A DNA stretch of 64,000 nucleotides. Source: Torymus aiolomorphi. Its lineage: Eukaryota; Arthropoda; Insecta; Hymenoptera; Torymidae. The notes under the pieces were generated by a model. That model was not told the DNA's origin. It made no database searches and saw only the letters and a program-made list of their open reading frames with translations. The translations under genes and the position numbers were made by a program. The stretch is from the NCBI GenBank assembly GCA_036365515.1, contig CM070877.1, positions 111,864,011 through 111,928,010 on the forward strand, written 5' to 3'. Each line of letters opens with the position of its first letter. Positions within the stretch are counted from its first letter, which is position 1. Shown here one piece after another: positions 1,253 to 52,125 of this stretch.

Positions 1253-1261
1253 CTCGGCGGC
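1253..1261. repeat. Left 9-bp target duplication of the MULE
   Basis: CTCGGCGGC, repeated exactly at 22799-22807. It is present once (as GCCGCCGAG) at 40835-40843 in the opposite, uninterrupted arm of the P-like element. Nine base pairs is typical of Mutator-like elements. Confidence 0.95.
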
Positions 1262-3385
1262 AGCACCGTGAACTATGCGATTAATTATCGCAAAAAATTA
1301 TAAAAAAAATACCAATAATTGTGGAATTGCAAGCTACGTTTGCAAATGCAATTAAAAAAATTGTGCGAAGCTTACTTTTTTTGCAAAAAAATAAAAACCA
1401 AGCTAGTTGCGAAAAATGAAAAAAATTCATATTGCTTACAATCTATTTGTCGCAGAGAGATGATAACTACGTGAATCGATTGCAATTTAATTGCCGATTA
1501 CGGCTATAATTGCAAAATTCCGATATTCGTCATATTTATATAGCAATTGATTAATTTACTTTTGATCAATCGCCACGGCGCAAAGGCATTTCACGCCGTT
1601 CCATATTCCTCGTTCTAAGTTCCGCATTCCGCATGATCGAAACGTTTAGGAACGCGATCTATACGTATATACTTATATTACTTGTAGCCTCAGTATAAAT
1701 TGCGTTATAAACATAAGAATTCACGTCTATTAAAAAAAAAAGTCAAAAATATAATAATTGGAATTATATTACAATGTCAGTTTTGATAAATCATAAAATG
1801 CATTTTTTCTTTTATTCGTCTATATATATAGGCATCCACCGACCATAATAAATGAAATAAGTTTGTTGGTACATACAAGTAAAAAAAATAAAATGGTTTA
1901 ACATAAAAAAAAAGTAAATATAAATATTATTGCAATTACATATGCATCTCCATAAAGTAAATAATAATTACCACGTTTTGAAATCGTTCCATACGCGTCA
2001 TTTCCTTAAATTTTATAAGAATAACTACCAAATCAATTAAGACAATTACTCATCTGGTCTGACTAAACAAGTATCAAATTTCGTAATTGGTATTAGCAAC
2101 GGTATATAAATAATTATAGAGTCAAAGAATGTGCGTACATGCTTGTGATCCACTTTATTTATAGGCGACGGTTATAAGATTTTTTAATAATGATATTCGA
2201 ACTAAATCTATGAAAACCATTTTTCTGATGCCACTGAGTATAGCTCATCGATTAAGTTCCGGTAAGCATTAGGTATTGCAAATTTGTTTATAAAAACTCA
2301 CGATTAAATAATTCGCAAGTAATTAAATATACTATATCATAGTGGCTCGCTCATACGCAAGATGTTCATAAATATATTATAAGAATAATTCTACTAAATC
2401 CATGAGAACCATTGCTCTCATGCAACTGAGTAACACTCATCGATTAAGTATTGAAAATTTAACAATAAAAATACGCAATCAAACCATTCAAGTCCAATAA
2501 GACGTGCTATCCCACAGCGACGTATGCATATGCGACAATTATGAGATTTCGTAATAACGATTCGAAATAAATCGATGAAAAAAATTTATCTGGCGCTACT
2601 GAACACGACTCATCGGTTAAGTTTCGGCATGCATTAGGTATTTCAAATTTGTTGATAAAAAATAAAAATAAAAATAAGCGATTAATTAATTCACAAGTAA
2701 TCAAATTTCCCATGCCTATTAAGTAAATCGCTAGTAATTAAATGTAATTGAAAAATGACGACTAATTTTTCCACGATTGTTAGAGAGATCGATTTAGTAG
2801 AAATTAAAGTTGTGAATAAAGCTGCGTAGAGATACCTCTACAAAATTTTAAGAAAAAGAAACGCGTCTGAGATAGCTCGTTTTGTGAGCCTCAGCCGAGG
2901 TAGCATCTTCTGTTAGTCTCGTCCGAGATAACGTCTTCTGTTAGCTTCAGCTGAGATAGCATTTTGTTACTCTCAGCCGTCGATATGCCAGCTGCGTATT
3001 TATGAGCGACATCATTTTCGGTTTTATTTTTAGGTCTGATGACTATTACTGTACTAAATTATTAATTATAGCGTTTTCTCTGGTGGAAATGAACAATAGT
3101 AATTTATATATAGTATTGAAAATTCGGAAATAAATATTTCTTGAGCAATCGCATGTCCGTATGTTACAGCGACATCTGCAAGTGCGAGTTTTTTTTTTAT
3201 TTCAATATTTACCATCAATATTTACGACCGAGTAAGACTCATCGATTTCGTATGAATATTATTATTTAATATAATTTTTAATAAAATGGATCTAATAAAA
3301 TTAGTAGGCTATAAATAATAATTATTATTTATTATACAGTATATAAATGTTCGAATAATGTTGAAATGTAATTATTATATCAGGA
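1262..3385. repeat. Left TIR of the MULE (about 2.1 kb)
   Basis: Reverse complement of the right arm, with which it can be followed from AGCACCGTGAAC to the region near 3385 (TTCGAATAATGTTGAAATG). It carries fewer copies of the subterminal repeats than the right arm, so it is about half as long. Positions 2865-2990 hold short tandem repeats around GAGATAGC and TCTTCTGTTAG, mirrored at 19190-19310. No coding sequence is supported. Confidence 0.9.
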
Positions 3386-3461
3386 ATTAATAAAATTAAT
3401 GATGTAATATAATGATTAATATAATTAATATTTTTATTCTGAGATAATATTTATTCTTATA

Positions 3462-6400
3462 TTAAATTTTAGCATATACTACTAAAGATACTTTTTCGGA
3501 CGGTATTTCTGTAAGTAGTTGTATATTTTTGTTTAAATCATTATATAATCTCCATTGTTTATCTTCAGCTGAATAAATAAATGCTTTGTAATGCACAATG
3601 TTATTTTCATTTTGGAAATCGCCATCCCCTTCAAAGCAAATGCATCCTTTCAAGATAAAACTTGAATCTTGCAAACGCAAAGTTATCGGTATATCGTTCA
3701 AGTTCGTCCTAAAAGATATTTCTGTCTTTACTGTTCTATATAAAATTTATATATTTTTTCTTTCATGTAAAAATTCTATGTCTATTGCAAAATAATTTTT
3801 GATTTCGTAAGATAATATGGCATTGTTCCCACATTCATTTGGGCAATCAATTACTTTTGCCATTAAAATAGATTCCATAACCGACTGTAAATTTTCTATT
3901 TTATCATCATAAAATTGCTTTGCAGACAGTGATCTAGTATATATTTTTGTTTCGTTATTGAATATACACTTCTTACAATCAATTTTTCAGATGATACTTG
4001 GGCATAGTGTCATGAATTTTTCAAATGCTCTTACAATATTATCTTGACATTGTATTACGAATCTATTGCTGTCATTTTTATCTTTATACATCGAGTATAA
4101 AATTTCTGCTCGGTTCTGATAAAAATACTCTAAATTGAAATTATTAGCACAGTATTCAATGACACAACTTAAAAATCCTACTGTATCTTCGTTAGTGATA
4201 ACACATTGATTAATTTCTATGGAAAAACGACTATTTTCTAAATAGATAGATGTCATCAATTCTAAGCAACTATCGAATGGACATGTATTTATAAATAATA
4301 ATTTCATTAGTAATTTGTTAACATAGAAGTCCTGCATGCCAATTACACAACCATTTAAAATTAGATGACGATTTTTAATATGTTTCGTAACTATTGGTGA
4401 GGAAGCTGTAAATAATGAAGTATTATTAGTGTCAAATTCATCTTCATTTTCTAAAAAGTGACTTTCATCAGATTCAAGTCTATTAAAAACTGTATCTCCG
4501 CTTTTATTTTCAAGTGGAGTAGCGGCAACACGTTTTTCATCAAGTTCTTGTACGTTTAACATTGTATTTTTCAATTTCTTACATTTATTTAAAGCGTGAT
4601 TTGATGTTAATTGTAAATTCTCAAGGTCTAAGTCAAGAAAATTATCAGTTAAAATGTTTTCTGGAACTTTATTAGTAACATCTGCTGATAATTTCATGAA
4701 ACCAAACTTAGTTAAGTTATAGGCTTTCTTCGAATCTTTCAATATAAATTTTTGAACGTTAATAGGGTGTTTCTGTTTCTCTTTTTTTATTTTAAAAAAA
4801 ACCTCTGATCGTGTCGATGTACCTACAAAATTGGGAAAACAGAAATGTTCTCTTATCACATTTGTCCAAGATGGAAAGCTATAACATAAATTTTTAAAAT
4901 TTTTATTCAATTCGGGACAGTAAAAGAAATTTGCTTTGTCACAAATTTCTTCATCTTTATTACTTAAGGATATTGCTTTTTCAAATATATTATCAATAAA
5001 TTCCGTTAGAGAATCTTTTTCCGTATCAATATTGTTATCTGGACTGATTTCTGAAACAGAATCTATCTTGTTAAAAATATCATTATTTTCTACAGGATAT
5101 TTATAATCTTTTAATATATTTGTGATTTTTACAATTCTCATCCGACACTCAAAATTATGTGTAGCTGAGGTGCTGTTAGCGACAATAACGATACACGTAA
5201 CTAAATCTTGGAACTTTTCAACGGAATCACATTGAATTAAGTAGCCAAAGAACCTTATATAAAAATCCTGAATAGTACCCTCTACAGATTGGAAACATTT
5301 CCAATTCTTGAAAGAGCGCATAAGATGAGCTACATCATAACGGTAGTAACAACTTGGAACTTCTTTTGTTTCCTTATTCAAAACCTTATAACAGTTCAGG
5401 TTATAATCCTTATAAGTAACTTGATTGAATGAAAGACATACAGCGTTTTGTAAAGCAAGTGAACCGTCTGTAGAAATCTCCTTCGGTACTTTGGCCCCAG
5501 ATTCGAGCCATCGATCTAACATTTCTTTTAAATAGGATACATGGTGAATAGATGATATGAATTGCATTAGCGGGATAATTTTACGAGCAAAACCGATCAC
5601 TATTGCATAATAAAATAATGTTTTACTACTAAATGTATAAATTTGATATTTTTTTACCAAACTGCCTGTGGAATCTATTGACAGTAGTAAAGATAGATTC
5701 CTCAACATATTCCACAATTCTATTTGATTTTCAGAGCAATACATCACATAAAATGGAGACATTGACAATTTTCTTATATTGCACGCCTTTAAAAATTTTT
5801 CATTGGAAATAGAAAGGCCTTTGAAGTTTACGTAGCCACAAGCTTCGTCAAAAGCCTCTTGTCTTGCTTTTCTTAAACAAACAGTGTTATTCAATTCAGG
5901 AGGTTCAAATTTTGAGGAGGCTTTACCGATTTCGGTTTCTCTAAATTTGGCTGCCGACGTTGATAGTAACACTTTTTTAAAGTCGTTTCGTCTCTTACCT
6001 GCTAGCTTCCTTTTTTTTAAATGAGGAATTAATTCTGTTGCAAATGTTCTAATTACTATTTTTAAATGTTCTTTATGAATACTATCGCTTTGTCCTGCAA
6101 TGCCTGTACCACATTCATTACACTTTCCATTAAATTTAAATTCATTATTTGCTATATAACTATTTTTAAAATTAAATGGGCATGGCAAAGGATGTTCTTT
6201 ATAGATTTCTTGGAATAGAAAGTCAGTCCAGCCTTTTTCCTTTTTCTTTGTCTGCCTATTAATAAGATTATCTGTCTTGATTGTAATCGAAAAATTGATT
6301 CCCTCACAAAAATGTGGATTTGGATCATTATTATTAGGCATATAATCTTCATCTGATTCTTTTTTTGATTTTAATTCAATTTCTCTGACATTAAAATAAT

Positions 6401-6638
6401 TCATGAGCGTCGTCTTACTACCATGCCGATTATTATAAACAAAGAGAAACAGAGACTTTGCTGCCATTTTTAGGTTTAAAGATTTTCTAATTTCACTCCA
6501 TATTGAATTATCTTCTCTTTTAAGCAGATGATTGTTTTCAAAAATTGGATAATCTTTTAATTTGTCAATTAAAAAGTCAGGTGGCACTTCTGGTTCTCTT
6601 GGCATGTTTGGTAGGTTATGTAATTTGTTAATAAACAC
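3462..6638 (-). CDS. MULE transposase fused to USP-like protease domain
   Basis: An open frame of 883 codons (6638-3987) continues in the same frame to 3462 past a TGA at 3987 and a TAA near 3743. An N-terminal domain (about 1-75) is followed by a C/CxxC zinc-binding stretch (about 153-176, GKCNECGTG). The candidate RNase-H-like triad is D322 (LLLSIDSTGS), D391 (EISTDGSLAL) and E612 (STRSEVFFK), with H438 in DVAHLMR; this is a Mutator-type arrangement. The C-terminal part resembles a C19 ubiquitin-specific protease: cysteine box FINTCPFDSCLEL (C786), a CxxC...CxxxC zinc ribbon just after the TGA (DCKKC, CPNEC), and a histidine box VHYKAFIY...WRLYNDL near the end. The first part likely cuts and joins TIR ends. 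The second could act on ubiquitin or SUMO conjugates, which is inference. The two in-frame stops mean this copy is probably decayed, or the protease part is read through or spliced in a way I cannot see. The start is taken as the first Met; M12 is also possible. Confidence 0.75.
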
Positions 6639-7154
6639 TATATTTTACAGTTTATTATACAAAAATAATTACTATAACTATTTTTTAAAATAGTTTTTTC
6701 AATGCTATCTAAAACATAAATTAATTAATAATAAAAATATATTACATAATACTTTCTGATATTAATAATTTTTGTAATATGCATTACTATCAATCTCTAA
6801 ATAATCGTTACATGTGGTGTTCAGATGGGTTTTTATGCGGTAAAGTTACACTATTACCCAAATTAATTATATCTACGTTTGATACAAAAAACAACGAATA
6901 CTGACATTATTATTTAATTACTCTGAGTATGTTGTACAACATTCTTCTTATTTTTGAAAATCGCTCTGGTTAGATCCACTGCCCAACTGTGCTCCTTTAT
7001 ATTATTATGGAAGATGAACAGTAATTCCCGGGAATCACGTCATAGATGTCTCTGCGAAGTCGAACAGCTGAAGTGAGCTGAACTCACAGCAACGATATAT
7101 ATCTATATATATTTAGTCGTTTCATGTAAACGTATCTTTGTTCGATTCAATATA
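6639..7154. other. Divergent intergenic region, left part
   Basis: AT-rich spacer between the start of the minus-strand transposase (6638) and the plus-strand paralogue (7464). A shared bidirectional promoter is likely by position, but I see no defined promoter element. It ends at the hairpin at 7155. Confidence 0.4.
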
Positions 7155-7336
7155 ACAGCGAATCCACATTGCATGCGCTGTGCTCTATGCGCGATGCTCT
7201 ATGAGCTGAGTACGTGTAGACTTCTCCGCTGATTGGTTCACTGATAAAGTTCAACCAATCAGCGGAGAAGTCTACACGTACTCAGCTCATAGAGCATCGC
7301 GCATAGAGCATAGTGCATGCAATGTGGATTCGCTGT
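7155..7336. repeat. Near-perfect hairpin / MITE between divergent genes
   Basis: Starts ACAGCGAATCCACATTGCAT and ends with the reverse complement. Arms of about 80 bp pair almost throughout, around a short loop near TTCACTGATAAAG. The terminal motif GCAATGTGGATTCGCT recurs at 41509 and near 41790, so it is probably a mobile MITE family. I could not find a convincing target duplication. It sits in the presumed promoter region of both MULE genes. Confidence 0.8.
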
Positions 7337-7463
7337 AAAAATATCCAGCCTTTGTAACAGAGAAATCTACAGATTTCATAACCAGTTCAGTTCAGCTACC
7401 TAGATAATATACACAAAATGGAACTAGTTTTTTAACAAAGACGCATCGTTTTGTATTAGAAAA

Positions 7464-8533
7464 ATGAGTAAAAGAGGACCTAAGCCTTCAATTTCTCATG
7501 AAGAGCGATTCGAAGAGCTTCAAAAACACAATCTTTTTGATTCCAATGGATTTTTTAAAAAAGAAAGTGATTCAGTATGGACAACGATAAGTGACAATTT
7601 AAATGAAAAGGATTCAACTAGAAAAATTAGTCGCCACAATTTATATACTTATGTAACTCAAAACAGAAATGGTATTCTTAAGGAGCTAAATATATGGATA
7701 AATAAGCTGCAAACCTCATATTTACGTGAAGATGACACGTATGTAAGAGTACAGAAAATGTTGAAACAAATCAAGAAGAAATTTTACTTGTTATTAAAAA
7801 TAATGTATTATACAAATCAATTATAAGAGAATTATCTATCCACCCTTTCTCTGTTTTTCATTGGCCTATAGAAGCTATTAATTTGGCTTCAGTATTGCCA
7901 AAAAATACACATTATGTGTTTGCATTAATAGGCTCGTTTTGTGAAAAATTTGTTACGCCTTGTGGAGGAGCAAGTAATACTATATTCCTATATGCTTTTG
8001 GTACAAAAGTCAATGATAATTTTGTACCAATTTGTCAAGTCTCAACAGATGAAAATTCAATCAGTTTATTTTCAAGATTTTTTAATGATTGTCTTAGAAG
8101 TTCGTTGCCAATACCGTCAATAATAACATTAGACTTCTATTTGAATCACATCAAGTCTGCAAATTCTGTATTCAATGTAAATTTAAGCTACGAAATGTAT
8201 TTGAATATTTGCTTCAGATATTTAACTGAAAATGATCAAAAATTACCAAACTGCATTATAAACACAAATATTAGACTTCTGATTATGAAAGTTATGAAAT
8301 GGGCTTGTCTGCATAAAACTCGATTAGAGTCCGTAAAATTATTTTATATGTATACTATAATTTTATTAAGCTTACAAGAAACCCTATCAGAATTTGAAGA
8401 TATTCTGTGTAAGATATTTATTCTAACTTACAGCAAATATCAAAATTCGAATAGCAGACGATGTTTTCAATACTTAAAATTAAAATTTGAAGATTCAAAA
8501 ATATCAGACCCATACAGCATGAAAGAAAACTGA
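7464..8533 (+). pseudogene. Diverged transposase paralogue, 5' half
   Basis: The first 88 or so residues (MSKRGPKPSISHEERFEELQ...) align with the N-terminus of the minus-strand transposase: both have an acidic/basic helix, then NGFFKKESDSVWTTI against NHLLKREDNSIWSEI. A one-base frame change near 7735-7760 leads into a second frame open to 8533. That frame matches the DDE region of the paralogue (HPFSVFHW against SPFYVMYC; SRRCFQYLKLKFEDSK against FECRMRIVKITNILKD). The first catalytic Asp block SIDSTG is replaced by ALIGSF, and STDGSL is only weakly preserved as TLDFYL. About 190 residues including the zinc-binding segment are absent. The frame is broken by the insertion starting at 8535. 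The start ATG is the first in frame. It is either a decaying duplicate or a catalytically dead partner protein. Confidence 0.7.
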
Positions 8534-8699
8534 AATAATTACATGAAATAATTCATGAATTAATACATTGAAATGATTTAGAAAGAATTTTAAAAGGAAA
8601 AAAAATTAATTTTAAATTAATTTTTAAAATAATATATGGAATCCTTACAAAATACTTTCAAAAATCTTCCAAAAAAATAAAAAAAGTGTTACCAAAAAA

Positions 8700-10743
8700 T
8701 AATTACACGAATTAATTCTGAAAGGACTTTGAAAAGATTTTTTGAAAGAATACATAAAATAATTTCGAAATTATTGCAAGTATTCTTTCATGCAATAATT
8801 CAGAAATAATTTCAGAAAGATACAAATTAATCATTCACAAAAATAATTCAATATCTATTCAAAAATCTTACATGAATTATTTCATGAAATCTTCTGGGAA
8901 ACTCGTGTGAATTAATACAAGAAATAATTTTGAATTCTTTTGAAAAAGATTTTTAGAATAAAATTTTTTAAAACAAAATAGCAAAAAAAATAATTACACG
9001 AATTAATTCTGAAAGGACTTTGAAAAGATTTTTTGAAAGAATACATAAAATAATTTCGAAATTATTGCAAGTATTCTTTCATGCAATAATTCAGAAATAA
9101 TTTTAGAAAGATACAAATTAATCATTCACAAAAATAATTCAATATCTATTCAAAAATCTTACATGAATTATTTCATGAAATCTTCTGGGAAACTCGTGTG
9201 AATTAATACAAGAAATAATTTTGAATTCTTTTGAAAAAGATTTTTAGAATAAAATTTTTTAAAACAAAATAGCAAAAAAAATAATTACACGAATTAATTC
9301 TGAAAGGACTTTGAAAAGATTTTTTGAAAGAATACATAAAATAATTTCGAAATTATTGCAAGTATTCTTTCATGCAATAATTCAGAAATAATTTTAGAAA
9401 GATACAAATTAATCATTCACAAAAATAATTCAGTATCTATTCAAAAATCTTACATGAATTATTTCATGAAATCTTCTGGGAAACTCGTGTGAATTAATAC
9501 AAGAAATAATTTTGAATTCTTTTGAAAAAGATTTTTAAAATAAAATTTTTTAAAACAAAATAGCAAAAAAAATAATTACACGAATTAATTCTGAAAGGAC
9601 TTTGAAAAGATTTTTTGAAAGAATACATAAAATAATTTCGAAATTATTGCAAGTATTCTTTCATGCAATAATTCAGAAATAATTTCAGAAAGATACAAAT
9701 TAATCATTCACAAAAATAATTCAATATCTATTCAAAAATCTTACATGAATTATTTCATGAAATCTTCTGGGAAACTCGTGTGAATTAATACAAGAAATAA
9801 TTTTGAATTCTTTTGAAAAAGATTTTTAGAATAAAATTTTTTAAAACAAAATAGCAAAAAAAATAATTACACGAATTAATTCTGAAAGGACTTTGAAAAG
9901 ATTTTTTGAAAGAATACATAAAATAATTTCGAAATTATTGCAAGTATTCTTTCATGCAATAATTCAGAAATAATTTTAGAAAGATACAAATTAATCATTC
10001 ACAAAAATAATTCAGTATCTATTCAAAAATCTTACATGAATTATTTGATGAAATCTTCTGGGAAACTCGTGTGAATTAATACAAGAAATAATTTTGAATT
10101 GTTTTGAAAAAGATTTTTAGAATAAAATTTTTTAAAACAAAATAGCAAAAAAAAATAATTACACGAATTAATTCTGAAAGGATTTTGAAAAGATTTTTAG
10201 AATAAAATTTTTTAAAACAAAATAGCAAAAAAAATAATTACACGAATTAATTCTGAAAGGACTTTGAAAAAATTTTTTGAAAGAATACATAAAATAATTT
10301 CGAAATTATTGCAAGTATTCTTTCATGCAATAATTCAGAAATAATTTCAGAAAGATACAAATTAATCATTCACAAAAATAATTCAGTATCTATTCAAAAA
10401 TCTTACATGAATTATTTCATGAAATCTTCTGGGAAACTCGTGTGAATTAATACAAGAAATAATTTTGAATTCTTTTGAAAAAGATTTTTAGAATAAAATT
10501 TTTTAAAACAAAATAGCAAAAAAAATAATTACACGAATTAATTCTGAAAGGACTTTGAAAAGATTTTTTGAAAGAATACATAAAATAATTTCGAAATTAT
10601 TGCAAGTATTCTTTCATCCAATAATTCAGAAATAATTTCAGAAAGATACAAATTAATCATTCACAAAAATAATTCAATATCTATTCAAAAATCTTACATG
10701 AATTATTTCATGAAATCTTCCGGGAAACTCGTGTGAATTAATA
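8700..10743. repeat. 291-bp tandem repeat array
   Basis: The landmark TAATTACACGAATTAATTC recurs at 8700, 8991, 9282, 9573, 9864, 10156 and about 10222 and 10515. Spacing is 291-292 bp except for one shortened unit (10156). Copies are nearly identical by eye. Each unit contains short palindromes such as ATGAATTATTTCATGAAAT. Confidence 0.95.
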
Positions 10744-11084
10744 GATTTTTTAAAGAAAACATAACAATTCAGCAATCATGTCAAGAATTATATCACGAAA
10801 TAATTCAGAAATAATTTCAGAATGATAAAAATTAATTATTCACAAAGATAATTCAATATCTATTGAAAATAATTTCATGAATTATTTCATGAAATGTTGC
10901 GGGAAACTCACATGAATTAATACAAGAAATAATTTAGAATTCGTTTGAAAAAGATTGTTACAATAAAATTTTTTAAAACACAATAGCAAAAAAGATATTT
11001 ACACGAATTCTTCCTGAAAAAACCTTGAAAAGATTTTTTGAAAGAAAACATAAAATAGTTCAGAAATTATTGCAAGTATTCAAC

Positions 11085-12235
11085 ACGAAAAGGGCAGCGT
11101 CCGTATATAAGAGGCATCGTATAATGTATTTATTTTGTTTTTAATTCGAATTTGTTTCAATCAAATAAGTCCTAATTAATACAATATTTAATAAACAAAA
11201 CTTACTAAATAAGTATATACTAATTAAACAAAGTTAATATTAAAAAATAAAGAAATATTAGAAATAAATATTCTAATTTATTTTGTCAGTCATTTTGCAC
11301 TATATAATGAAAAAAATGAAATGATTGGATAATGATCGGATTTAGTCGTCCATTGTTTTCTACATTCGTATGATCCTATTAAAGAACGTATTAAAATGTG
11401 TGGGGGTATATAATTTTTCGTTTTTGTGAACTAAGATAGATTGAAACATTTACTAATTGCGAAAAATATTAATTTGAAAAGTTAATGTAAGAATATAAAA
11501 ACTTAAAATAAAAGGAAAAAAAACATTTAAAGATGAATAATATAGGTACTTAAAATAAGCAATATTTTTTATTATTATTCATAATAGTATTCTTTCAGTA
11601 TGACAATGTTTAGAAGTCCCCTCAAAATCGACAGAAATATTATTTATACGTCTGCCAAGAGTAAAGAGCCTTTGACTCTAAAAGTTGATTCTAAATTGAA
11701 AACACTACAAATAATAATAACGTCGGTAAGGTAGAGCTCATTCTATTCATCTCTGCATTATATGCAATTATCATTTTTTTATTTTTATCGAATTTCGGGA
11801 AAAGAGCTCTTTATTGCCCTTCGTAATGACAAAAATACACTATGTGTAAATTTTCAAGTTATTGCTCGTTATAGATTTTACAGGAAACGGGTTGAAAAAT
11901 TTTCTACCAGTTTTTTATGAAAAATAATGAACAGAATTTCTGAAAAATTTATAGGTGTATTATTTATGCAATTACGGAGTGCAGTGAAGAGCTTCATTCA
12001 TCAAAAGTTGAATCTAAGATCAAAAAAATGTAAAAACTCATAACGTCGGTAAGGAAGAGCTCCCTTTATACACACACATTTCACATCGACTTAATACAAT
12101 ATTTAATAAACTAAAAGTATTAAATAACTATGAATTAATTGATCAAAGTTAATATTAAAAAATAAAGTAATATTAAGAATAAATTTTCTGTATCACTCAT
12201 ATTGCAGTATATAATGAAAAAAATGAAATGATCTA
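11085..12235. other. AT-rich non-coding core of the insertion
   Basis: No reading frame of note. AACGTCGGTAAGGTAGAGCTC near 11729 and AACGTCGGTAAGGAAGAGCTC near 12041 mark a partial duplication of about 310 bp. I see nothing else interpretable. Confidence 0.5.
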
Positions 12236-12310
12236 ACAAGCGAGCGATAGCGTAATGGATAGCGTATTTGCGTAGTACCCAAGCGACCCGGGTTCGAATC
12301 TCCATCATGT
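12236..12310 (+). other. tRNA-Arg-like sequence (SINE head or tRNA relic)
   Basis: Contains an A-box-like TAGCGTAATGGATAGCG and a B-box GGGTTCGAATCTCC at tRNA spacing, most like tRNA-Arg. The acceptor and anticodon stems do not pair convincingly. It is therefore more likely tRNA-derived repeat sequence than a working tRNA gene. It lies inside the satellite-like insertion. Confidence 0.55.
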
Positions 12311-13185
12311 AAAAAATTTTTCTGCGTTTTTTTCTGCGATAAAATAGTGTAAAATTATTAACAATGTAAAATATATGTAAAAATAGTTAGAATATTATTT
12401 AAATAATATTCTAAATTATAAAAATGTACCTTCAAATACGGGATTATATATACCCTTCGAAATTTATTGTTAGTAATATTTACTAAATATTTTCTAATTA
12501 ATTCACAATATTTATTCCTGAATCCTTCCAAAAATCTTTCATTGAAAGGATTCTGCAATAATACATGATTTTATAACCTTCGAAATTTTTTGTTAGTAAT
12601 ATTTCCATTATATTTTCGAATTAATTCACAATATTAATTCCTGAATCCTTTCATACATCTTTCATTGAAAGGATTCAGGAATTAATTTTGTGAATTAATT
12701 CGAAAATATTATGGAAATATTACTAAAAAGAAATTTCAAAGAGTATAAATAACGTATTATTGCAGAATCCTTCCAATGAAAGATGTCTGAAAGGATTCAG
12801 GAATTAATTTTGTGAATTAATTCGAAAATATTATGGAAATATTACTAAAAAGAAATTTCGAACAGTATAAATCACGTATTATTACAGAATCCTTTCAATG
12901 AAGGATGTCTGAAAGGATTCAGGAATTAATTCACAAATTAATTCCTGAATCCTTTGAGACATCTTTCATTGGAAGGATTCTGTAATAATACGGGATTTAT
13001 CCGTCTTCCAAATTTCTTGTTAGTAATATTTTCATAATATTTTCGAATTAATTCACAAAATTAATTCCTGAATCCTTTCAGACATCTTTCATTGAAAGGA
13101 TTCTGCAATAATATGTGATATTAATTCTGAAAGGATTCTGAAAGATTCTTTCAGAAATCATTCAGTGAAAGGATTCTGTAATGAT

Positions 13186-13378
13186 GCTATGTCCGGGGTA
13201 TTTTCCTTTCAGAATTATTTCAGGAAATAATTTTGAAATATCTTTTAGTAACCTTTTGGTAATAATCCATGAATCCTTTCAGAAATCTTCTATTGAATAA
13301 ATTTTGCAATGATATTATAAATTATTTTTGAATTATTCCATTGAATTAATTCTGAAAGGAAAATACCCCGGACATAGC
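13186..13378. repeat. Hairpin with GCTATGTCCGGGG ends
   Basis: GCTATGTCCGGGGTATTTTC at 13186 is matched by its reverse complement ending at 13378. The surrounding TTCTGAAAG / CTTTCAGAA units extend the pairing outward to about 13125-13440, forming a larger cruciform-capable palindrome. Confidence 0.75.
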
Positions 13379-13466
13379 ATTATTACAGAATCCTTTCACT
13401 GAATGATTTCTGAAAGAATAAAATTATTTCATGCATTCTTTCAGAATCCTTTCAGAATTAATACAT

Positions 13467-15416
13467 GCTGTGTGGGAGATTTTTATAATAAAATTAAACT
13501 TACAGAAATAGATTTAAATAATACGTCATTAGTTTTAGGTGATTCAAATTTAAATTATAAGAAATGTGAAAATATTCTAGACTACATCAAACTTATTTTC
13601 AATAAAGCAAACCAATATATCTTGAAAGATGAAGAAAAAATGAATGAAGTTAATGCTTTTTACAGTGAAGATTTCTGTAAATCCCTTATAAAACTTTGTG
13701 CTGAATTTGTTGTATGGTCAAAAGTTATGGTTAAAGATTTTTCAAATCATGATCTTACAGACAATTTTACTTCACTTATAAACAGTTACAAAATAGGTTT
13801 CAAATGTCATCTTCAATCTAAAATTGATTTTAAAAAAACAATTGCGAATTATTTAATCGATAATATACACTATACTGACCAAATATTTGGAAATTGTAGA
13901 AATTGGATTACAGATAAAAAATTAGTATTGGCAAAGAAAAATGTAAATATTGAAAATAAGTATCTTTATTATGAAGAGGATTGGATGGGCTTAAACGAAT
14001 ATACAGAACTAAATAATAGTGATACCACAGACGAAGAAAGCAGATCTGAATCCAGCGACAAAATTAGTGATAGCTCAACACATTCTGATTTGAACGATGA
14101 ACATCAATTTTCTGATGAAAGTTTTGATATAATTATAAATTCTGCTTGTGAACAAAATAATACCAACTTATCAAATGATCCAGTTTGTGATAAATCTTCT
14201 CAAAAAGATATCTGTCCAAGTTCAGATTTTATAGGTAACGTAACTGAAAATAAAATCATAACAGATGAATCTATTTCTATGGATCATCATATAGAGAATA
14301 ATGTATCTGATAAATTTATTTTGGATGAACTTTGTATCGATAACCAAGACATGAATAGAACAATTGTATGCAAACTACATGAAAATAAAATTATGATCAA
14401 TAGTTCAAGACACTTGAGCGAAGTTAAGTCGAGTTCAAATAATAATGAATCGACAAAAAAAACCATAGAATTTAAATTTCAAGCTGGTACTGAAAAGTCT
14501 AGAGGAAGATACTTACAACCATGTAGAGAAATCAACTTATTAGCTCAAAGACCAGTAAAGAGAGTGAAAAAGCGTCAAGTTATAAAAAATTATAATACTT
14601 TAAAGCCTAAAACAATTAACAAAATAATAATTTTTATTAAAACATCAAGTTATTTTGATAGCATAATAGAAGTATTAACAACTGCTTATTTTAATATAAT
14701 GAAGTTCCAAAATTATGTTAACAATAGTACAGATATATTAGAAGAAGAAAAACAAGAATTATTTTCTATATTACATAATTATGTAACAACATTTAACATA
14801 ATAGCATTGTACACAGAAAGAGCTAAATATATTAGCTAAAATTTGTAATGCAAAGAATTTCAAATTCACTTGGACAAATTCCATTGGTGAATTTTTTGAA
14901 AAAAGCGTCTTTCCATGTATCATTAAAACAATACAATGCCCATCTTGTAAATTTATCAAATATGAGCATAGTAACCTTATAAAATTATCACCTGAAGAAT
15001 TTGTAACGCAAGAATTATCACTCTGCATAGATAATCAAGACCAAAATAAAAATACTTGCTGTAAATGTAAAATAGGTTTACTTACAATCAAAAATCAAAT
15101 TAATTATATATTATGTGTGAACATTGAAGAGTTCTCCTCTATTCCCACAAAGAAATATATAATCAAAATAAATGATTTGATACCAAACTTGAAGTATAAA
15201 CAACAAACATTCGCATTGATAGGTGTCATTGCATTTGAAGAGCCTGTCAGAGATGATCAGCGACGGCACTATGTGGCATACTGTAGAAATATACAAGGTA
15301 ATTGGTACAGATATGATGACAGCGCAACACCTAATAGACCCATAAGAATACACAGTACAAATCTAAACATAAATGTAGCATTAATTATTTATATTGAATA
15401 TAATGACACGATTTAA
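13467..15416 (+). pseudogene. Diverged transposase paralogue, 3' half with USP-like domain
   Basis: The frame is open to 14839, then a one-base shift within about 15 nt (near 14830) leads to a frame running to 15416. It aligns with the second half of the minus-strand transposase (IFNKANQYILKDEE against IFEKAISLSNKDEE). The stretch corresponding to E612 reads INSYKIGF, with no acid. A Ser/Asp/Glu-rich linker (about 14010-14360) follows. The cysteine box is changed from INTCPFDS to IKTSSYFDS, removing the nucleophile, while the zinc ribbon (CPSC ... CCKC) and a canonical USP histidine box (HYVAYCRN..GNWYRYDDS) remain. A protease fold without its cysteine would bind rather than cut. The long open frame before the single shift argues that decay is recent or that coding constraint persisted. 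Confidence 0.7.
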
Positions 15417-15850
15417 AATAAGTACATGAAAGTCACTGAACATAAACTTATATTTATATACACAAACACTATATTATATATATTCACATAAAATAAATGA
15501 ATAAATATATTCATATAATACAAATCAATTTTAATTAATTTTATTCCTTTGCTATTAACCCTTTTTCTTCAATTCTTATGTTTATTTCATGTAAACTAAT
15601 TTTCATTGTTTATACATATTTTTTAAACTCCTAATTTCTCTATTACTATTGAATACATTTCTTACTGCAAAAATACCAGAAATCAAATCTTGAATTTCAT
15701 GTAGATTTATATGACAAAAATTTTTGCCATTTATACTGTAAGTTTCTATTATTTTATACATGATAAGTTCCACTTTACAAAATTATAAGAATAAACGGAA
15801 AGGACAGATCTAGCAGAAGAAAAATAATATTTTTGTCCAATATTGCTACC
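15417..15850. other. AT-rich spacer, nothing recognised
   Basis: Follows the paralogue stop. Possible poly(A) signals (AATAAA) occur near 15490. No gene or repeat is identified. Confidence 0.4.
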
Positions 15851-16025
15851 GGCCTTTCAACATGGAGTGCGTCGTGCGCCGCGCGTCGCGTCGTGCGCCG
15901 TGTTTCGCGACCCGTCATCTTCCAAGTCTTGTCCCAAAATGGGCTTACGAGTAACACGGTCTACAAGAATTGGAGGATGACAGGTCACGAAACACGGCGC
16001 ACAACGCACTCCATGTGGAAAGGCC
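15851..16025. mobile_element. Short GC-rich MITE inside the MULE
   Basis: GGCCTTTCAACATGGAGTGCG on the left pairs with CGCACTCCATGTGGAAAGGCC on the right (one mismatch). Inner arms GCGCCGTGTTTCG / CGAAACACGGCGC also pair. It is 175 bp with no coding. The GC content contrasts sharply with its neighbours. The target duplication is not clear. Confidence 0.8.
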
Positions 16026-16343
16026 GTAATGCATAGGAATTGAAACCGTCGCTTTATAGAGTTTTAGACCATCTTATGACTTCGTCATCGACGTGTCATG
16101 TTGACATGTAGGACGTGATTGAAATATCGTTACGCTCTTAGAACATATAGTACCTGCTCTAAGGTTACGCTTTTAAAACAAATAACACATCCATATAAGT
16201 AGTTACATCCAAATTTATAACTGAAAACGCTGAAATATTTAACTCTTTCAGCTAATTGTTACTTTTAACATATAATAAACTACGACGTGACAAATTATTA
16301 GTGCTATTCTGCTATTAGATTTAATATAACGTAAATATATAAA

Positions 16344-18436
<2,093 letters not shown>

Positions 18437-18794
18437 TTTCACTTATACCATAAGATAATCAAGAATGAGGATTAGAATATAGCGAGGAGGATATTGAACA
18501 TATGGTATTTTAAGAGGTAAAATAAGGATTTGATACAAAATCACGGCAGGTAGCCTAATTTTTAATATACTTTTGGATTAAAATTACGCTACAATTACTT
18601 AATGCCAGCAAATTTATCGTAATAATTACGAGTAATTTACCTTGAAAATTTACGAGACAGTACGATATTTATAATCTATATTTATGAGTATTTTATAGCC
18701 GATTAATAAATAAAAGAGTAAAATTTGTTTAAAACAAATCACATTATCCTTCTATTTATTCCCAACATTATCACACTTGCGTAATACGTAATCA
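18437..18794. other. Spacer between cargo gene and right TIR
   Basis: AT-rich. It may hold the cargo gene's 3' UTR (AATAAA near 18705). Nothing else is recognised. Confidence 0.4.
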
Positions 18795-21700
18795 TAATAA
18801 TAATTACATTTCAACATTATTCGAACATTTATACTGTATAATAAATAATAATTATTATTTATAGCCTACTAATTTTATTAGATCCATTTTATTAAAAATT
18901 ATATTAAATAATAATATTCATACGAAATCGATGAGTCTTACTCGGTCGTAAATATTGATGGTAAATATTGAAATAATAAAAAAACCTCGCACTTCCAGAT
19001 GTCGCTGTAACATACGGACATGCGATTGCTCAAGAAATATTTATTTCCCAATTTTCAATACTATATATAAATTACTATTGTTCATTTCCACCAGAGAAAA
19101 CGCTATAATTAATAATTTAGTACAGTAATAGTCATCAGACCTAAAAATAAAACCGAAAATGATGTCGCTCATAAATACGCAGCTGGCATATCGACGGCTG
19201 AGCGTAACAAAATGCTATCTCAGCTGAAGCTAACAGAAGACGCTATCTCGGACGAGACTAACAGAAGATGCTACCTCGGCTGAGGCTCACAAAACGAGCT
19301 ATCTCAGACGCGTTTCTTTTTCTTAAAATTTTGTAGAGGTATCTCTACGCAGCTTTATTCACAACTTTAATTTCTACTAAATCGATCTCTCTAACAATCG
19401 TGGAAAAATTAGTCGTCATTTTTCAATTACATTTAATTACTAGCGATTTACTTAATAGGCATGGGAAATTTGATTACTTGTGAATTAATTAATCGCTTAT
19501 TTTTATTTTTATTTTTTATCAACAAATTTGAAATACCTAATGCATGCCGAAACTTAATCGATGAGTCGTGTTCAGTATCACCAGATAAATGTTTTTCATA
19601 GATTTAGGTCGAATGATTATTGCAAATTCTTATAAACGGCACATATGGATTCGTCGCTGTGGTATAATAGCGCATTGTATTGGATTTGAATAATTTAATC
19701 ACGTATTTTTATAAACAAATTTGCAATTACCAATGCTTGCCGAGACTTAATCGATGAGTCGTGTTCAGTAGCACCAGATAAATGTTTTTCATAGAAAAAG
19801 TTCGATTGATTATTGCAAAATCTTATAAACGGCGCATATGGATTCGTCGCTGTGGGATAGCATCTTTTATTGCACTTGAATTATTTAATATTTATATCGG
19901 TTAGTATTTAATTAGCAATACTAATTCGTTGAGTCTTACGCAGTTACATGAGAACAATAGTTCTCATGGATTTAGTAGAATTATTCTTATAATATTTACG
20001 AACAGCTTGCATATATGAACGCGTCAAGATGGTATAGTACATTTACTAACTTCCGAATTATTTAATCGTGAATTTTTATAAACAAATTTGCAATACCTAA
20101 TGCTAGCCGAAACTTAATCGATGAGCTATACTGAGTGGCATCAGAAAAATGGTTTTCATAGATTTAGTTCGAATGATTATTGCAAAATCTTGTAAACGGC
20201 GTAAATGGATTCGTCGCTGTGGTATAATAGCGCATTGTATTGGATTTGAATAATTTAATTACGTATTTTTATAAACAAATTTGGAATTACTAATGCTTGC
20301 CGAAACTTAATCGACGAGTCGTGTTCAGTAGCGCCAGATAAATGTTTTTCATCGATTTATTTCGAATCGTTATTACGAAATCTCATAATTGTCGTATATG
20401 CATACGTCGCTGTGGGATAGCACGTCTTAATGGACTTGAATGGTTTGATTGCGTATTTTTATTGTTAAATTTTCAATACTTAATCGATGAGTGTTAGTCA
20501 GTTGCATGAGAGCAATGGTTCTCATGGATTTAGTACAATTATTCTTATAATATATTTATGAACATCTTGCGTATGAACGAGCCACTATGGTATAGTATAT
20601 TTAATTACTTGCGAATTATTTAATCGTGAATTTTTATAAACAAATTTGCAATACCTGATGCTTGCCGAAACTTAATCGAAGGATTGTGTTCAGTAGCACC
20701 AGATAAATGTTTTTCATAGATTTAGTTCGAATGATTATTGCCAAATCTTGTAAACGGCGTAAATGGATTCGTCGCTGTGGCATAATTGCGCATATGCATA
20801 CGTCGCTGTGGCATAATAGCGCATTTTATTGGACTTGAATTATTTGATTGCGTACTTTTTTATTATCAAATTTGCAATACTTAATCAATGAGTCTTACTC
20901 AGTTGCATCAGAACAATGGTTTTCATAGATTTAGTAGAATTATTCTTTTGATATTTACGAAACATGTTAGGTATTAACGCGACACTAAGGGATAGTACAT
21001 TTAATTACATTTGAATTATTTCATCGCGAATTTTCATCAACAAATTGCAATACCTAATACATGTTCATACTTATAATCGATTAGCCGTACTCACGGGCAC
21101 AAGAAAAATAGTTTTCATAGATTTAGTTCGAAACATTATTACAAAGTCAAAAAAACGTCCCATATGTATACGTCGCTGTTGCATAATATAGCGCATTTTA
21201 TTGGACTTGAATTATTTAATTGCGTATTTTTATTAACAAATTTGCAATACTTAATCGATGAGTCTTACTCAGTTGCATGAGAGCAATAGTCCTCATGGAT
21301 TTAGTAGAACTATTCTTGTAATATTTACGAACATCTTGCGTATATGAACGCATCAAGATGATATAGTACCTATTTACTTACTTCCGAATTATTTAATCAT
21401 GAATTTTTATAAACAAATTTGCAATACCTGATGCTAGCCGAAACTTAACCGATGAGTCGTGTTCAGTAGCGCCAGATAAATTTTTTTCATCGATTTATTT
21501 CGAATCGTTATTACGAAATCTCATAATTGTCGCATATGCATACGTCACTGTGGGATAGCACGTCTTATTGGACTTGAATGATTTGATTGCGTATTTTTAT
21601 TGTTAAATTTTCAATACTTAATCGATGAGTGTTACTCAGTTGCATGAGAGCAATGGTTCTCATGGATTTAGTAGAATTATTCTTATAATATATTTATGAA

Positions 21701-22798
21701 CATCTTGCGTATGAACGAGCCACTATGGTATAGTATATTTAATTACTTGCGAATTATTTAATCGTGAGTTTTTATAAACAAATTTGCAATACCTAATGCT
21801 TACCGAAACTTAATCGATGAGCTATACTCAGTGGCATCAGAAAAATGGTTTTCACAGATTTAGTTCGAATATCATTATTAAAAAATCTTATAACCGTCGC
21901 CTATAAATAAAGTGGATCACAAGCATGTACGCACATAATTTGACTCTATAATTATTTATTTACCGTTGCTAATACCAATTACGAAATTTGATACTTGTTT
22001 AGTCAGACCAGATGAGTAATTGTCTTAATTGATTTGGTAGTTATTCTTATAAAATTTAAGTAAATGACGCGTATGGAACGATTTCAAAACGTGGTAATTA
22101 TTATTTACTTTATGGAGATGCATATTTAATTGCAATAATATTTATATTTACTAATTTTTTATGTTAAACCGTTTTATTTTTTTTACTTGTATGTACCAAC
22201 AAACTTATTTCATTTATTAAGGTCGGTGGATGCCTATATATATAGACGAATAAAAGAAAAAATGCATTTTATGATTTATCAAAACTGACATTGTAATATA
22301 ATTCCAATTATTATATTTTTGACTTTTTTTTTTAATAGAATTCTTATGTTTATAACGCAATTTATACTGAGGCTACAAGTAATATAAGTATATACGTATA
22401 GATCGCGTTCCTAAACGTTTGGATCATGCGGAATGCGGAACTTAGAACGAGGAATATGGAACGGCGAGAAATGCCTTTGCGCCGTGGCGATTGATCAAAA
22501 GTAAATTAATCAATTGCTATATAAATATGACGAATATCGGAATTTTGCAATTATCGCCGTAATCGGCAATTAAATTGCAATCGATTCACGTAGTTTTCAT
22601 CTCTCTGCGACAAATAGATTGTAAGCAATATGAATTTTTTTCATTTTTCGCAACTAGCTTGGTTTTTATTTTTTTGCAAAAAAAGTAAACTTCGCACAAT
22701 TTTTTTAATTGCATTTGCAAACGTAGCTTGCAATTCCACAATTATTGGTATTTTTTTTATAATTTTTTACGATAATTAATCGCATAGTTCACGGTGCT
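18795..22798. repeat. Right TIR of the MULE with subterminal repeat array (about 4.0 kb)
   Basis: Reverse complement of the left TIR at both its inner and outer parts, but nearly twice as long. From about 19600 to 21900 two alternating unit types repeat. One contains CGATGAGTCGTGTTCAGTAG and CGTCGCTGTGG. The other contains TTACTCAGTTGCATGAGA and AACATCTTGCGTAT. I count roughly a dozen units. Such arrays are common in MULE ends and may be transposase binding sites. No coding sequence. Confidence 0.9.
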
Positions 22799-22807
22799 CT
22801 CGGCGGC
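22799..22807. repeat. Right 9-bp target duplication of the MULE
   Basis: CTCGGCGGC, identical to 1253-1261. Confidence 0.95.
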
Positions 22808-31800: not shown

Positions 31801-32881
31801 TAGTTTGAAAAATCGCCATGCATTGAAGCGACCATTATCTGACAGAAATCCAGAAATCCAGCAGCGACTTGAAAGTTTTATCGAGTGGTCAGAGAAATGG
31901 AATGTAAAGAAAAAAGGGAACGACAACAAGCCACCTTGTTTTTTGGGGTTACCTTTGACTGCTCGTGCTTTAGTAAGTCTGTATTTGGAAATAAAATCTT
32001 CATTCCCCGACTTTGAATTAGCAACAGGTCTGTGCAACCAAGATTCTGTGGAACATGCTCACTCCAAGTTGCGTGGCAGAGGTGGATTCAATCCGAATCC
32101 TACCTGTAGGACGTATCGTTTGACTCTTAGGCACATAATGTCAACCGATTTTATTCATACGAGTAAAAAAGGTAACACAAGTTGCGAAGAAAGCCATTCG
32201 TTACTTCCTCAAAATGACGTTGAAAAAGAGACCACAGAGTTAGTTGCACTACCTGAATATAATTCCAAGGAAATGCAAGAGCTCCAAGAAATTACAGATG
32301 CTGCAGACGATTTACTGGATTTCCATCTAGAGTTACAGTCTTCTAACATGTCAGATATGGACACTAAATTTAGTTATGAACAAAACGCTATAACATACTT
32401 TTCTGGTTACGTGGCACGTAAATCATTAGAAAAAAATCATTGTCTGACATGCGAAAAAGATTTAATGAAAGATGCATCAGAATCTGGAACCAGTAATGAA
32501 ACATACATCAACTTGAGAGAGTACCCACATTCTGATCCAGAAGTTCCATCAGTAATGTTCTTAGTCAGACCAACGGAACAGTTTGCAAAAGTAGTTAATT
32601 GTCAATTACAAGCCTTTGACAAAATTTATTTAAAATTTTGGCATGAGCATGATCTTTTACTTAAGTTAGCTGAAAACGTGGAAGCGTACACTCGTAAACA
32701 GTTTCCTGATTGGTTTGATCAAGAGAATGTCTGTTATGAGCACAGAGTACAAATGCTTAAATTTCTTTTGTTAGTTAAAATTTATGCGAAAACTAGGGAA
32801 CGTAACAATAATAGGAAAACTGCGTCTAAAAGGCCGATTGCGACAAAATGTAGAAAGCTGAAGATTGTTCAAAATGTATAA
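25827..32881 (+). CDS. THAP-domain P-element-like transposase, one intron
   Basis: Exon 1 is 25827-25965 (donor CAG|GTTAG) and exon 2 is 30006-32881 (acceptor CGCAG|GAAAC). The 139-nt first exon restores frame to give 1004 aa with no stops. The N-terminal THAP zinc finger spans the intron: C12 ... C22 with HLFRFP in exon 1, CRLHFSEDDM in exon 2. A Gln-rich run (encoded by 30220-30350) and a Lys-rich coiled region follow. The RNase-H-like core shows D404 (LKFDEMSI), D496 (VCDQGSNNQ) and E729 (DSVEHAHSKLRGRGG), the P/THAP9 arrangement with an insertion between the second Asp and the Glu. A CLTCEKDL motif lies near the C-terminus. It should bind the TIRs through THAP and catalyse cut-and-paste. 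It is the only gene of the host P-like element and looks intact, so the element could be active. The intron holds several MITEs. Confidence 0.9.
26007..27497. mobile_element. MITE with CACTGAAAAAAATTT ends, in intron
   Basis: CACTGAAAAAAATTT on the left and AAATTTTTTTCAGTG on the right, flanked by TA at 26005-26006 and 27498-27499, as for Tc1/mariner-type elements. It is interrupted by the 933-bp element at 26200. Without that insertion it is about 556 bp and has no coding. Confidence 0.8.
26200..27132. mobile_element. Non-autonomous TA-flanked element nested in the MITE
   Basis: 25-bp inverted ends, GGGTAAGAGACCCGATTAGT on the left, flanked by TA at 26198-26199 and 27133-27134. The inside is AT-rich without a transposase. 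It contains CACAAATGCGAAC- and GTGTGCC-type short repeats. It is likely a mariner-like deletion derivative. Confidence 0.85.
27877..28408. mobile_element. TA-flanked MITE with GCGAGCGCG subrepeats
   Basis: TCGTCGGTTGAGTGGAA on the left matches the reverse complement of the right end (TTCCTCCCAACCGATGA) imperfectly, flanked by TA on both sides. Both arms carry degenerate copies of GTACCAACTCGGGCGAGCGC. Frames seen in it are not genes. Confidence 0.75.
28694..28856. mobile_element. Short hairpin MITE
   Basis: AAAGGACCCCGCACACAATG pairs with the reverse complement at the right end, with arms of about 50 bp. No target duplication is certain. Confidence 0.75.
28857..30005. other. 3' part of the transposase intron
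   Basis: AT-rich, no recognised gene or repeat. It ends with the acceptor TTTTCGCAG at 30005. Confidence 0.5.
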
Positions 32882-39605: not shown

Positions 39606-41013
39606 TGATTAACGCCATTTAATAACTTTTTACATTTAAATATTTTGAAGAATTTATATGGAAAAGTCAGAAGTCTTGGCGATTACTTATATTTTAAATA
39701 GATTAAAAAATAGAGTATGGAAAACCGAGTAAATGACGAAATCGCTGTAAAAACATGTACATAATTATTTATTTTACAGAAGAGTTGTTATATTGAATAA
39801 AATATGATTTTTTCGAATTATTAAATTTCAACTCTACTAGAGTAAAAAATGTGTATAATATGATACCATTTTTTTATGTTATACACTATTACTGATTATA
39901 ATTCAAAGGAAAATGGTGTTTTCATTAAGTCCCAAATGTGAATGCAAATCTTATGCAGGATTATCTTTGAGGCTTAAATAAAACAATTTGAAGCACAAGC
40001 ACATTTTTTGATAATAGCCTTTATGCATTTTCGGCCGGTTAAAAATGCTTTTTATATTATATGCTTACTTGTTGATTACCACTTAATAAATAATATTAAT
40101 AAAAACTTACTTTTAGAACAAATAACGTATGTTTTATAGGGATTAGAGAATGGGAATGAGAATATAATATGTATTTCTGAAATTGAACTTGATTGGTCAA
40201 CGATACTTTTTTATCCTGCTTAATCCTTAAAAAAGTTTATCTTGACCGTGATTGATTACATTTTACATATAAATTGGATAGGGATATTATTGCAAAAAAT
40301 AAATATAACGATATTTTTAATGAGTTTACTCTTGGTGAATTAATTTATTCAGAATATAAAATTTTCTTTAAAATATAAATTAAAACATCAATTCTACTAG
40401 AGAATGATAATTAAATGATAAAAAGGTGAAAATTCTGTATGTTGTGTTACAATAATGTAATGAAAAAAATTATGCACGAGAAAAAAAAAATATATTGAGT
40501 CGGGATTGAACGTGGATCCAAAAGATTACGGCAAAACTAGCCGCACGCCTTAGCCACCACGGCTACCGCTACGATGTCAATGTCTAACACTGAAATCGTT
40601 TATGTTCATCTTCTCCCCTTCGGCTTAGGATGTGAATTAGAATTTGAGTTTTACAGTTTAAAGTTTATAATTTCATTAATTTGCATGTATACAATATACA
40701 AATGCACGACCGAGCGGCGGTTGTCAGGCCGCTCGGCCGAAGTCGGATTGTTGCGGGAGAAGTAAACAGACGGCGAGCGCGGGGCGCGCCGCTGGGTCGC
40801 TCGTGTATACACATGACCGGTGCACGCGCACTGAGCCGCCGAGCCATCGTCTCCCGCTTGCCACGCCCCGCGCCGCGTGTACACGTCTCAACGACCAATC
40901 ACGAAATTGTGGACATGCTTCGCTACTTTCGCCGCGAGAGGCAGCAGCGCGCCACGCGCAGAAGTCTGCCTCACTTTTCTCCGGGGCGCTGGCAATCTCT
41001 CTATTCATCTCTG
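39606..41013. repeat. Outer piece of the P-like right TIR
   Basis: Reverse complement of 22808-24036 and 1069-1252. It contains the uninterrupted MULE target (40835-40843), with both MULE flanks joined around it. Open frames across it have no support. Confidence 0.9.
40498..40571 (-). other. tRNA-like sequence in the P-like right TIR
   Basis: Mirror copy of 23072-23145. Confidence 0.5.
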
Positions 41014-47770: not shown

Positions 47771-47807
47771 TTTTTATTGGCCTTAATGATTTTAGGCTCT
47801 CCCGTTA

Positions 47808-52105: not shown

Positions 52106-52125
52106 AATGGACTTTCGCGCAAATT

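Follow-up and report, generated by a model that had tools for sequence, protein, structure and literature searches.

The 64,000-nucleotide window of Torymus aiolomorphi DNA analyzed here (C5:111864011-111928010 of a 1.08-Gb assembly) carries a Mutator-type, Rehavkus-like transposon with two related genes on opposite strands. Gene A encodes a transposase fused to a C-terminal domain with the predicted fold of a ubiquitin-specific protease (USP, C19), while gene B apparently encodes an ancient, catalytically dead paralogue of A that has been retained by selection. In such an element A probably cuts the DNA, B acts as its partner subunit, and the isopeptidase of A acts on ubiquitin or SUMO. A first-pass annotation of this DNA had recognized the element and its transposase–protease fusion; that interpretation is supported in part. 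The second, divergent gene B had been overlooked.

Boundaries of the element

The ends of the element are exact, as first claimed: the 12-bp terminus AGCACCGTGAAC at 1262 recurs as its reverse complement at 22798, and the 9-bp target-site duplication (TSD) CTCGGCGGC is repeated without a mismatch on both sides. The empty site reported in the same window is also borne out, as the flanks joined at a single TSD copy match 41012-40434 (minus strand) with 98.1% identity over 579 bp and one TSD copy lies at the junction. The main blocks of the terminal inverted repeats (TIRs) are 97.8% identical over 1,400 bp (1262..2661 vs 21404..22798), and by block the inverted arms measure 468 nt at 98% and 948 nt at 97%.

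Identical termini delimit a second copy of the element (copy 2; C1:75724205-75744265, 20,061 bp), which is 98.7% identical to window positions 3537-8508 and lacks window bases 8509-13476, which are thus a nested insertion. The 21.5-kb size given at first is therefore correct as a span but rejected as the natural size of the element: without the insertion and its 3-bp duplication, the element measures 16,566 bp—i.e. an element of ~16.6 kb with a passenger of ~5 kb. No TSD was found at the ends of copy 2; its termini are intact, yet the 9-mers that flank them differ (ATCTTGTGC / CTGAGCCGT), which would follow from an old insertion or else from rearrangement between copies.

Gene A, a transposase with a USP domain

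Gene A comprises 1,047 codons from its ATG to a TAA at 3462-3464. In the window, the frame is interrupted by a TGA at codon 873 (3987-3989) and a TAA at codon 953 (3747-3749); these stops are late, since copy 2 reads sense codons at both positions, and copy 2 has frame breaks of its own. The minus-strand frame first put at 883 codons measures 885 amino acids (aa) from stop to stop. The catalytic triad, initially numbered D322/D391/E612, becomes D311 (5673-5675), D380 (5466-5468), and E601 (4803-4805) when counted from ATG 6605, and is invariant in a 9-sequence alignment. Spacings are 69 residues (D-D) and 221 residues (D-E). Together with a DxxH motif (D424, 5334-5336; H427, 5325-5327), the triad is kept in 19 of the 20 A rows of our residue table. 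A DDE triad with this Mutator-type spacing, the [C/D]xxH motif that is a hallmark of Mutator-like elements (MULEs), and a TSD within the 8–11 bp range of MULEs (9 bp, exact, with an empty site; none in copy 2) assign the element to this group. The Pfam MULE domain (PF10551) stays below the cut-off in relatives of A (L016, E = 1e-4; P0008, 3.6e-3).

A search of 5.8 billion proteins with A returned 8 relatives. Three of these are full-length and free of interruptions (1055, 1113, and 1058 aa; 39–41% identity over 100% of the query), and a profile search added one further relative, P0010. In the host genome, an 872-aa part of A matches at least 56 places, a lower bound because scoring covered the best candidates, and these merge into 41 loci (numbered with L). 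Stop-to-stop A frames of 1128, 1195, and 1202 aa in this genome contain both domains. A scan of viral contigs gave no relative among 43 pattern matches.

The C-terminal part of A is predicted to adopt a C19/USP fold, in line with what had been proposed from its sequence motifs. The mean predicted local distance difference test score (pLDDT) of the model is 64.3 overall, with ten-residue means in the USP domain mostly between 70 and 93. Specifically, the Cys/His/Asn-Asp triad (C775, 4281-4283; H1005, 3591-3593; N1022, 3540-3542) and a CxxC...CxxC zinc ribbon starting at C877 are found, so that the Cys box, zinc ribbon, and His box described earlier are all real, although the last two lie beyond the TGA at codon 873. 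Of the 21 rows covering each site, the cysteine is kept in 20 and the histidine in all 21 (the table has 23 rows, or 17 groups after merging near-identical copies). Exceptions in the zinc ribbon are a Phe for one Cys in L013 and L014, and a second pair spaced CxxxC in the window copy. One A-type protein, P0008, keeps all transposase residues and has Ser at the USP cysteine. The top structural match of the domain is a SUMO isopeptidase, which is tied, and the fold matches include Pan2, whose entry describes it as a pseudo-ubiquitin hydrolase. Sequence profiles match ubiquitin-directed USPs best (USP36, USP2, and Ubp8).

Pfam gives no match at all for the window A protein, including MULE, PHD finger, and Peptidase_C48. 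The best scores for Pfam UCH, 17.4 bits in gene B (window 14805-15413, E = 0.0035) and 15.0 bits in an A domain (L012), are below the gathering score of 23.9 bits, and we take this as divergence given the predicted USP fold. With a 6-row profile (A3), no USP was retrieved from PDB, and the L012 domain on its own as a query retrieved nothing. By contrast, a 9-row profile with B included (A2) finds USPs in PDB (best 4.8e-6), and a broader A-only profile (A6), which omits the stop-containing USP piece of L022, finds them weakly. The domain of A is therefore divergent, and part of the strong sequence signal is due to B, whose His box is more canonical. The USP assignment stands on the predicted fold and the alignment rather than on Pfam.

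Gene B, an apparently dead paralogue inherited with A

Gene B starts head to head with gene A and resembles it with local identities of 21–34% in the RNase H-like and USP parts; no counterpart of the WRKY-like region of A was seen in gene B of the window or copy 2. The tree and final residue table include 26 rows (20 A and 6 B), fewer than the 41 A loci and 33 B-only loci. A smaller residue table has 14 A and 5 B rows and omits L018, in which the second Asp and the Glu are missing. The first catalytic Asp is kept in none of the 6 B rows (Ala, Ile, or Met instead) and the Glu in none of the 5 that cover it (Ile or Leu instead). The DxxH motif is intact in 0 of 6, and 3 of 6 retain the second Asp. 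Ser takes the place of the USP cysteine in all 8 B rows that were compared (5 families; codon 14648-14650 in the window), and the histidine position reads His in 3, Gln in 3, and Leu in 1, one row being cut. In the window, B has frame breaks near 7.74 and 14.83 kb besides the nested insertion, and in copy 2 a single break divides it into 691 + 332 aa. Uninterrupted B frames exist elsewhere (1111 aa in L032 and 1091 aa in L033, with another of 1130 aa reported).

Searching the genome with one B protein gave 62 matches. Fifteen fall on A loci and the remainder merge into 33 B-only loci—i.e. matches off the listed A loci. Among the weaker ones (23–29% identity), the three read whole or in part (L032, L033, and L023) are B by their residues. 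Of the 33, 20 have an A locus within 20 kb (0.15% would be expected), with A and B on opposite strands in 20 of 20 (12 divergent and 8 convergent); these pairs include the window element, copy 2, and another locus pair with 97% identical B proteins. Two A loci, L019 and L022, also have a B that the search did not list, and at least 22 of the 41 A loci are paired. For the 13 unpaired B-only loci, an A lies within 65 kb in 3 cases and none lies within 1 Mb in 10. We rejected B as a host gene because two copies enclose it between their TIRs and 20 of the 33 loci have an A next to them.

In the 26-row tree, all B rows fall into a single clade (100/99), whose internal branching matches that of the A partners. 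For example, l32 and l33 group on the B side and l17 and l22, which stand in for their near-identical partners, on the A side; l21 and l24 are together on both sides, adjoining the family of the window element. Between families, dN/dS is 0.12–0.16 for A (4 unsaturated of 6 pairs) and 0.18–0.29 for B (4 unsaturated of 5 pairs), compared with 0.98 in an out-of-frame control. For the USP part of A it is 0.13–0.43 (6 pairs), and for the pseudo-USP of B 0.12–0.36 (4 pairs). These between-family values are approximate because dS is high in most pairs. Among close copies, dN/dS ranges from 0.41 to 3.43 on few changes, with two values undefined, as expected for decay after insertion. As judged from these substitution ratios, A, B, and both USP regions are under purifying selection.

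One clade of the tree (L012, L015, L016, L018, and L028) shows no B. Its sole whole element, L031+L012+L030 (C5:111646873-111667269), has one A gene centrally and lacks B. This element is ~20.4 kb long, has arms of ~7.9 kb at 99.5–99.6% identity and ends GGGACCCCCC, and lies ~200 kb from the window element; no exact 9-bp repeat was found within 25 bp of its ends. In the same clade, an open frame of 879 aa (L018:3559-6195) has no USP and carries Asn for the second Asp and Lys for the Glu, and is perhaps an independent dead transposase.

Exchange of the protease in one lineage

Three A relatives (L017, L020, and L027; 32–33% identity to A) have a C-terminal Ulp1 domain (Peptidase_C48) and no USP. 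In L017 this domain is above the Pfam cut-off (E = 1e-13). The DNA of L017 is ~99% identical to that of L020 and L027, which match its Peptidase_C48 at 98–99% of residues. In the tree, the Ulp1-bearing A is placed among USP-bearing A rows, where it joins l22 and P0007 (100/100). Its partner has kept the dead USP: L032 is a B located 10.4 kb from L020. The interchange narrows the cause for carrying a protease to an activity common to both folds, and the replacement of USP by Ulp1 suggests that the requirement is for enzymatic activity. Because the Ulp1 fold is known above all from SUMO proteases, SUMO is slightly favored over ubiquitin as the substrate, which would fit an anti-silencing role.

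Other features of the element and the window

The coordinates of all features are given in Table 1. The nested insertion has the outer sequences CCCATACAGCATG/CCCACACAGCATG and 13-bp imperfect inverted ends (CCCAYRCAGCATG), and contains tandem repeats of 291 and 122 nt. The gap between the two start codons is possibly a promoter common to A and B, and holds a hairpin at 7155-7336 (84-nt arms at 98%, 14-nt loop) that is perhaps a small miniature inverted-repeat transposable element. Three further open frames at 16335-18073 have no match in the other loci compared and are found only in the window element and copy 2, where ~380 bp are added between two stretches of the region; they are possibly a third, spliced gene.

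Elsewhere in the window, elements were recognized by eye: a 961-aa open frame resembling a P-element-type transposase with a THAP-like start (29996-32881), an IS630/Tc1-like transposase frame in two inverted copies, the second shortened (35587-36669 and 37551-38108), and a Gypsy-type retroelement in pieces with gag-, protease-, and pol-like frames (47078-53043, minus strand).

Table 1. Positions of the element, its genes, and associated features in the window.
Feature	Position	Strand	Remarks
Whole element	1262..22798	.	21,537 bp; based on TIR ends, TSD, empty site, and copy 2 with the same ends
Left 9-bp TSD	1253..1261	.	CTCGGCGGC
Right 9-bp TSD	22799..22807	.	CTCGGCGGC; exact repeat of left
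Left TIR, main block	1262..2661	+	Additional inverted blocks extend to 3378
Right TIR, main block	21404..22798	-	
Minisatellite-like repeats	19513..21904	.	Periods 193, 367, and 401; within and beside right TIR
Gene A, transposase fused to USP domain	3462..6605	-	ATG at 6605
Gene A, USP (C19)-fold domain (predicted)	3465..4385	-	Residues 741–1047
Gene A, RNase H-like catalytic domain (predicted)	4746..5747	-	Residues 287–620
Gene A, WRKY-like DNA-binding domain (predicted)	6015..6317	-	Residues 97–197; C142, C162, C165
Gap between start codons of A and B	6606..7463	.	858 bp; head to head
Gene B, first part	7464..8508	+	Covers N-terminal domain and RNase H-like region; first Asp of the triad substituted
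Nested insertion in gene B	8509..13476	.	4,968 bp; 3-bp TSD AGA; absent from copy 2
Gene B, second part	13477..15416	+	Follows nested insertion; Glu substituted; pseudo-USP that retains zinc ribbon and His
Three more open frames	16335-16595, 17010-17561, 17732-18073	+	
Empty site, paralogous unoccupied target	40434..41012	-	Matches joined flanks

A proposed two-protein machine and its alternatives

These observations suggest that such elements are two-protein machines that interfere with the protein-tagging system of their host. With an N-terminal helical domain, WRKY-like and RNase H-like DDE domains, and a C-terminal USP-fold isopeptidase, A would be the working transposase, which cuts and joins DNA. 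A and B would form a heteromeric transpososome in which B is an architectural subunit that stabilizes or positions the complex, and the dead USP of B may hold a ubiquitin-like modifier. The isopeptidase of A would strip ubiquitin or SUMO off the transposase, repair proteins, or host silencing factors at the element. A stronger version, in which A and a full-length B with dead transposase and protease parts, inherited together in deeply diverged families, assemble the transpososome and disarm ubiquitin/SUMO silencing with an exchangeable protease module, the pathway and not the fold being decisive, is tentative and on the whole rather unlikely.

A more limited role for the protease is a serious possibility, if less than an even one: the isopeptidase may mainly stabilize the transposase by clearing ubiquitin chains from it, without acting on chromatin. 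The fusion places the enzyme in cis beside the transposase, and the best profile matches are ubiquitin-directed. Against this, Ulp1, which is usually SUMO-specific, replaces USP in one lineage, and the top structural match, though tied, is a SUMO isopeptidase.

It is unlikely that B is instead a self-encoded repressor, i.e. a dead paralogue that restrains transposition by binding to A or to the element ends. Truncated P-element products act in this manner, B has lost its catalytic residues while keeping the N-terminal domain and RNase H-like region, and some families manage without B. However, B apparently lacks the WRKY-like region of A and forms one ancient clade that has been passed on together with A, unlike transposition repressors, which usually arise late as deletion derivatives; moreover, selection appears to span its length, pseudo-USP included. 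A USP domain that serves as a ubiquitin/SUMO-binding or structural module and not as an active protease is quite improbable. The Ser in P0008 and in 8 of 8 B rows, together with Pan2 among the fold matches, would agree with it, but A keeps its catalytic Cys and His almost throughout, and the Ulp1 found at the same place in one lineage suggests that activity is needed. Finally, that B and the USP part are functionless, decaying remnants with frames left open by recent origin is hardly credible: both genes are broken in the window copy and change among close copies is near neutral, but the between-family dN/dS of B and its pseudo-USP (0.12–0.36 vs 0.98 in the control) and the B frames that stay open over 1091 and 1111 aa led us to reject B as a relic.

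A partner subunit and an active isopeptidase remain our preferred reading. The presence of USP and Ulp1 at the same place in one transposase family, with the USP apparently under selection, makes the role of the protease testable.

Comparison with known systems

Foldback FB4/NOF of Drosophila, which encodes a large protein of ~1,056 aa, has long, repeat-rich inverted ends like those of the window element; the two are compared by description. Kaonashi-type elements bear Ulp1 and differ from the window protein, which has no Peptidase_C48, whereas its relative L017 has one.

Rehavkus, an outgroup of MULEs with a PHD finger and with arthropod and annelid hosts, shares the 9-bp TSD and the minisatellite before the 3' TIR, a likeness again of description (PMC6446971). 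Its PHD finger may have a counterpart in the Ulp1-bearing L017, where a weak PHD-like stretch lies beyond Peptidase_C48 (zf-HC5HC2H_2, E = 0.14). Rehavkus differs in having a single open reading frame (ORF) and TIRs of 26–400 bp (PMC6446971), compared with two genes, a USP, and TIR blocks of at least 1,400 bp here, and we therefore call the element Rehavkus-like only. Among arthropod Mutator-like elements, TIRs, a D-D spacing of 60–76 (69 here), a long D-E spacing (214 in one family, 221 here), and transposases of up to 1136 aa are similar, whereas their length (1.4–10.0 kb) and, as a rule, single ORF (two ORFs in six species) differ (PMC13359780). The words protease, peptidase, and ubiquitin are absent from the accessible text of both papers (PMC6446971; PMC13359780).

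Several unrelated transposases are known to carry proteases of the ubiquitin/SUMO pathway: Ginger1, plant and hydra Mutators with Ulp1, and a Trichomonas transposase_11 with C19 all have such a cysteine protease at the transposase C-terminus, and a role in transposition or repair has already been proposed for them (PMC2836005). Ginger is integrase-related and carries OTU or Ulp1, the Trichomonas case is a protist transposase of another family, and a paired dead paralogue is not described in the available passages on these systems (PMC2836005). Among the literature matches listed, with most subscription journals and Repbase Reports outside, we found no C19 domain in a Mutator or Rehavkus transposase and no transposon-encoded dead transposase paralogue. 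As far as these searches reach, the USP on a Mutator-type transposase, its exchange for Ulp1 within one family, and the selected, dead paralogue on the opposite strand are new.

Two systems resemble the pairing of A and B. Maize MuDR also has two genes in one Mutator element (mudrA and mudrB), the second of which is apparently needed for integration, but mudrB is described in the accessible text just as a protein of unknown function (PMC6446971). In Paramecium, the active transposase PiggyMac is bound by catalytically dead paralogues (PgmL) that are needed for excision; these are domesticated piggyBac-type host genes and not those of one transposon, and a protease is unmentioned in the passages available (PMC6143343). 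The paired, selected dead paralogue reported here would be a transposon-encoded counterpart of PgmL, and such a partner would mean that two different transposase subunits are required by at least some elements of the Mutator type.

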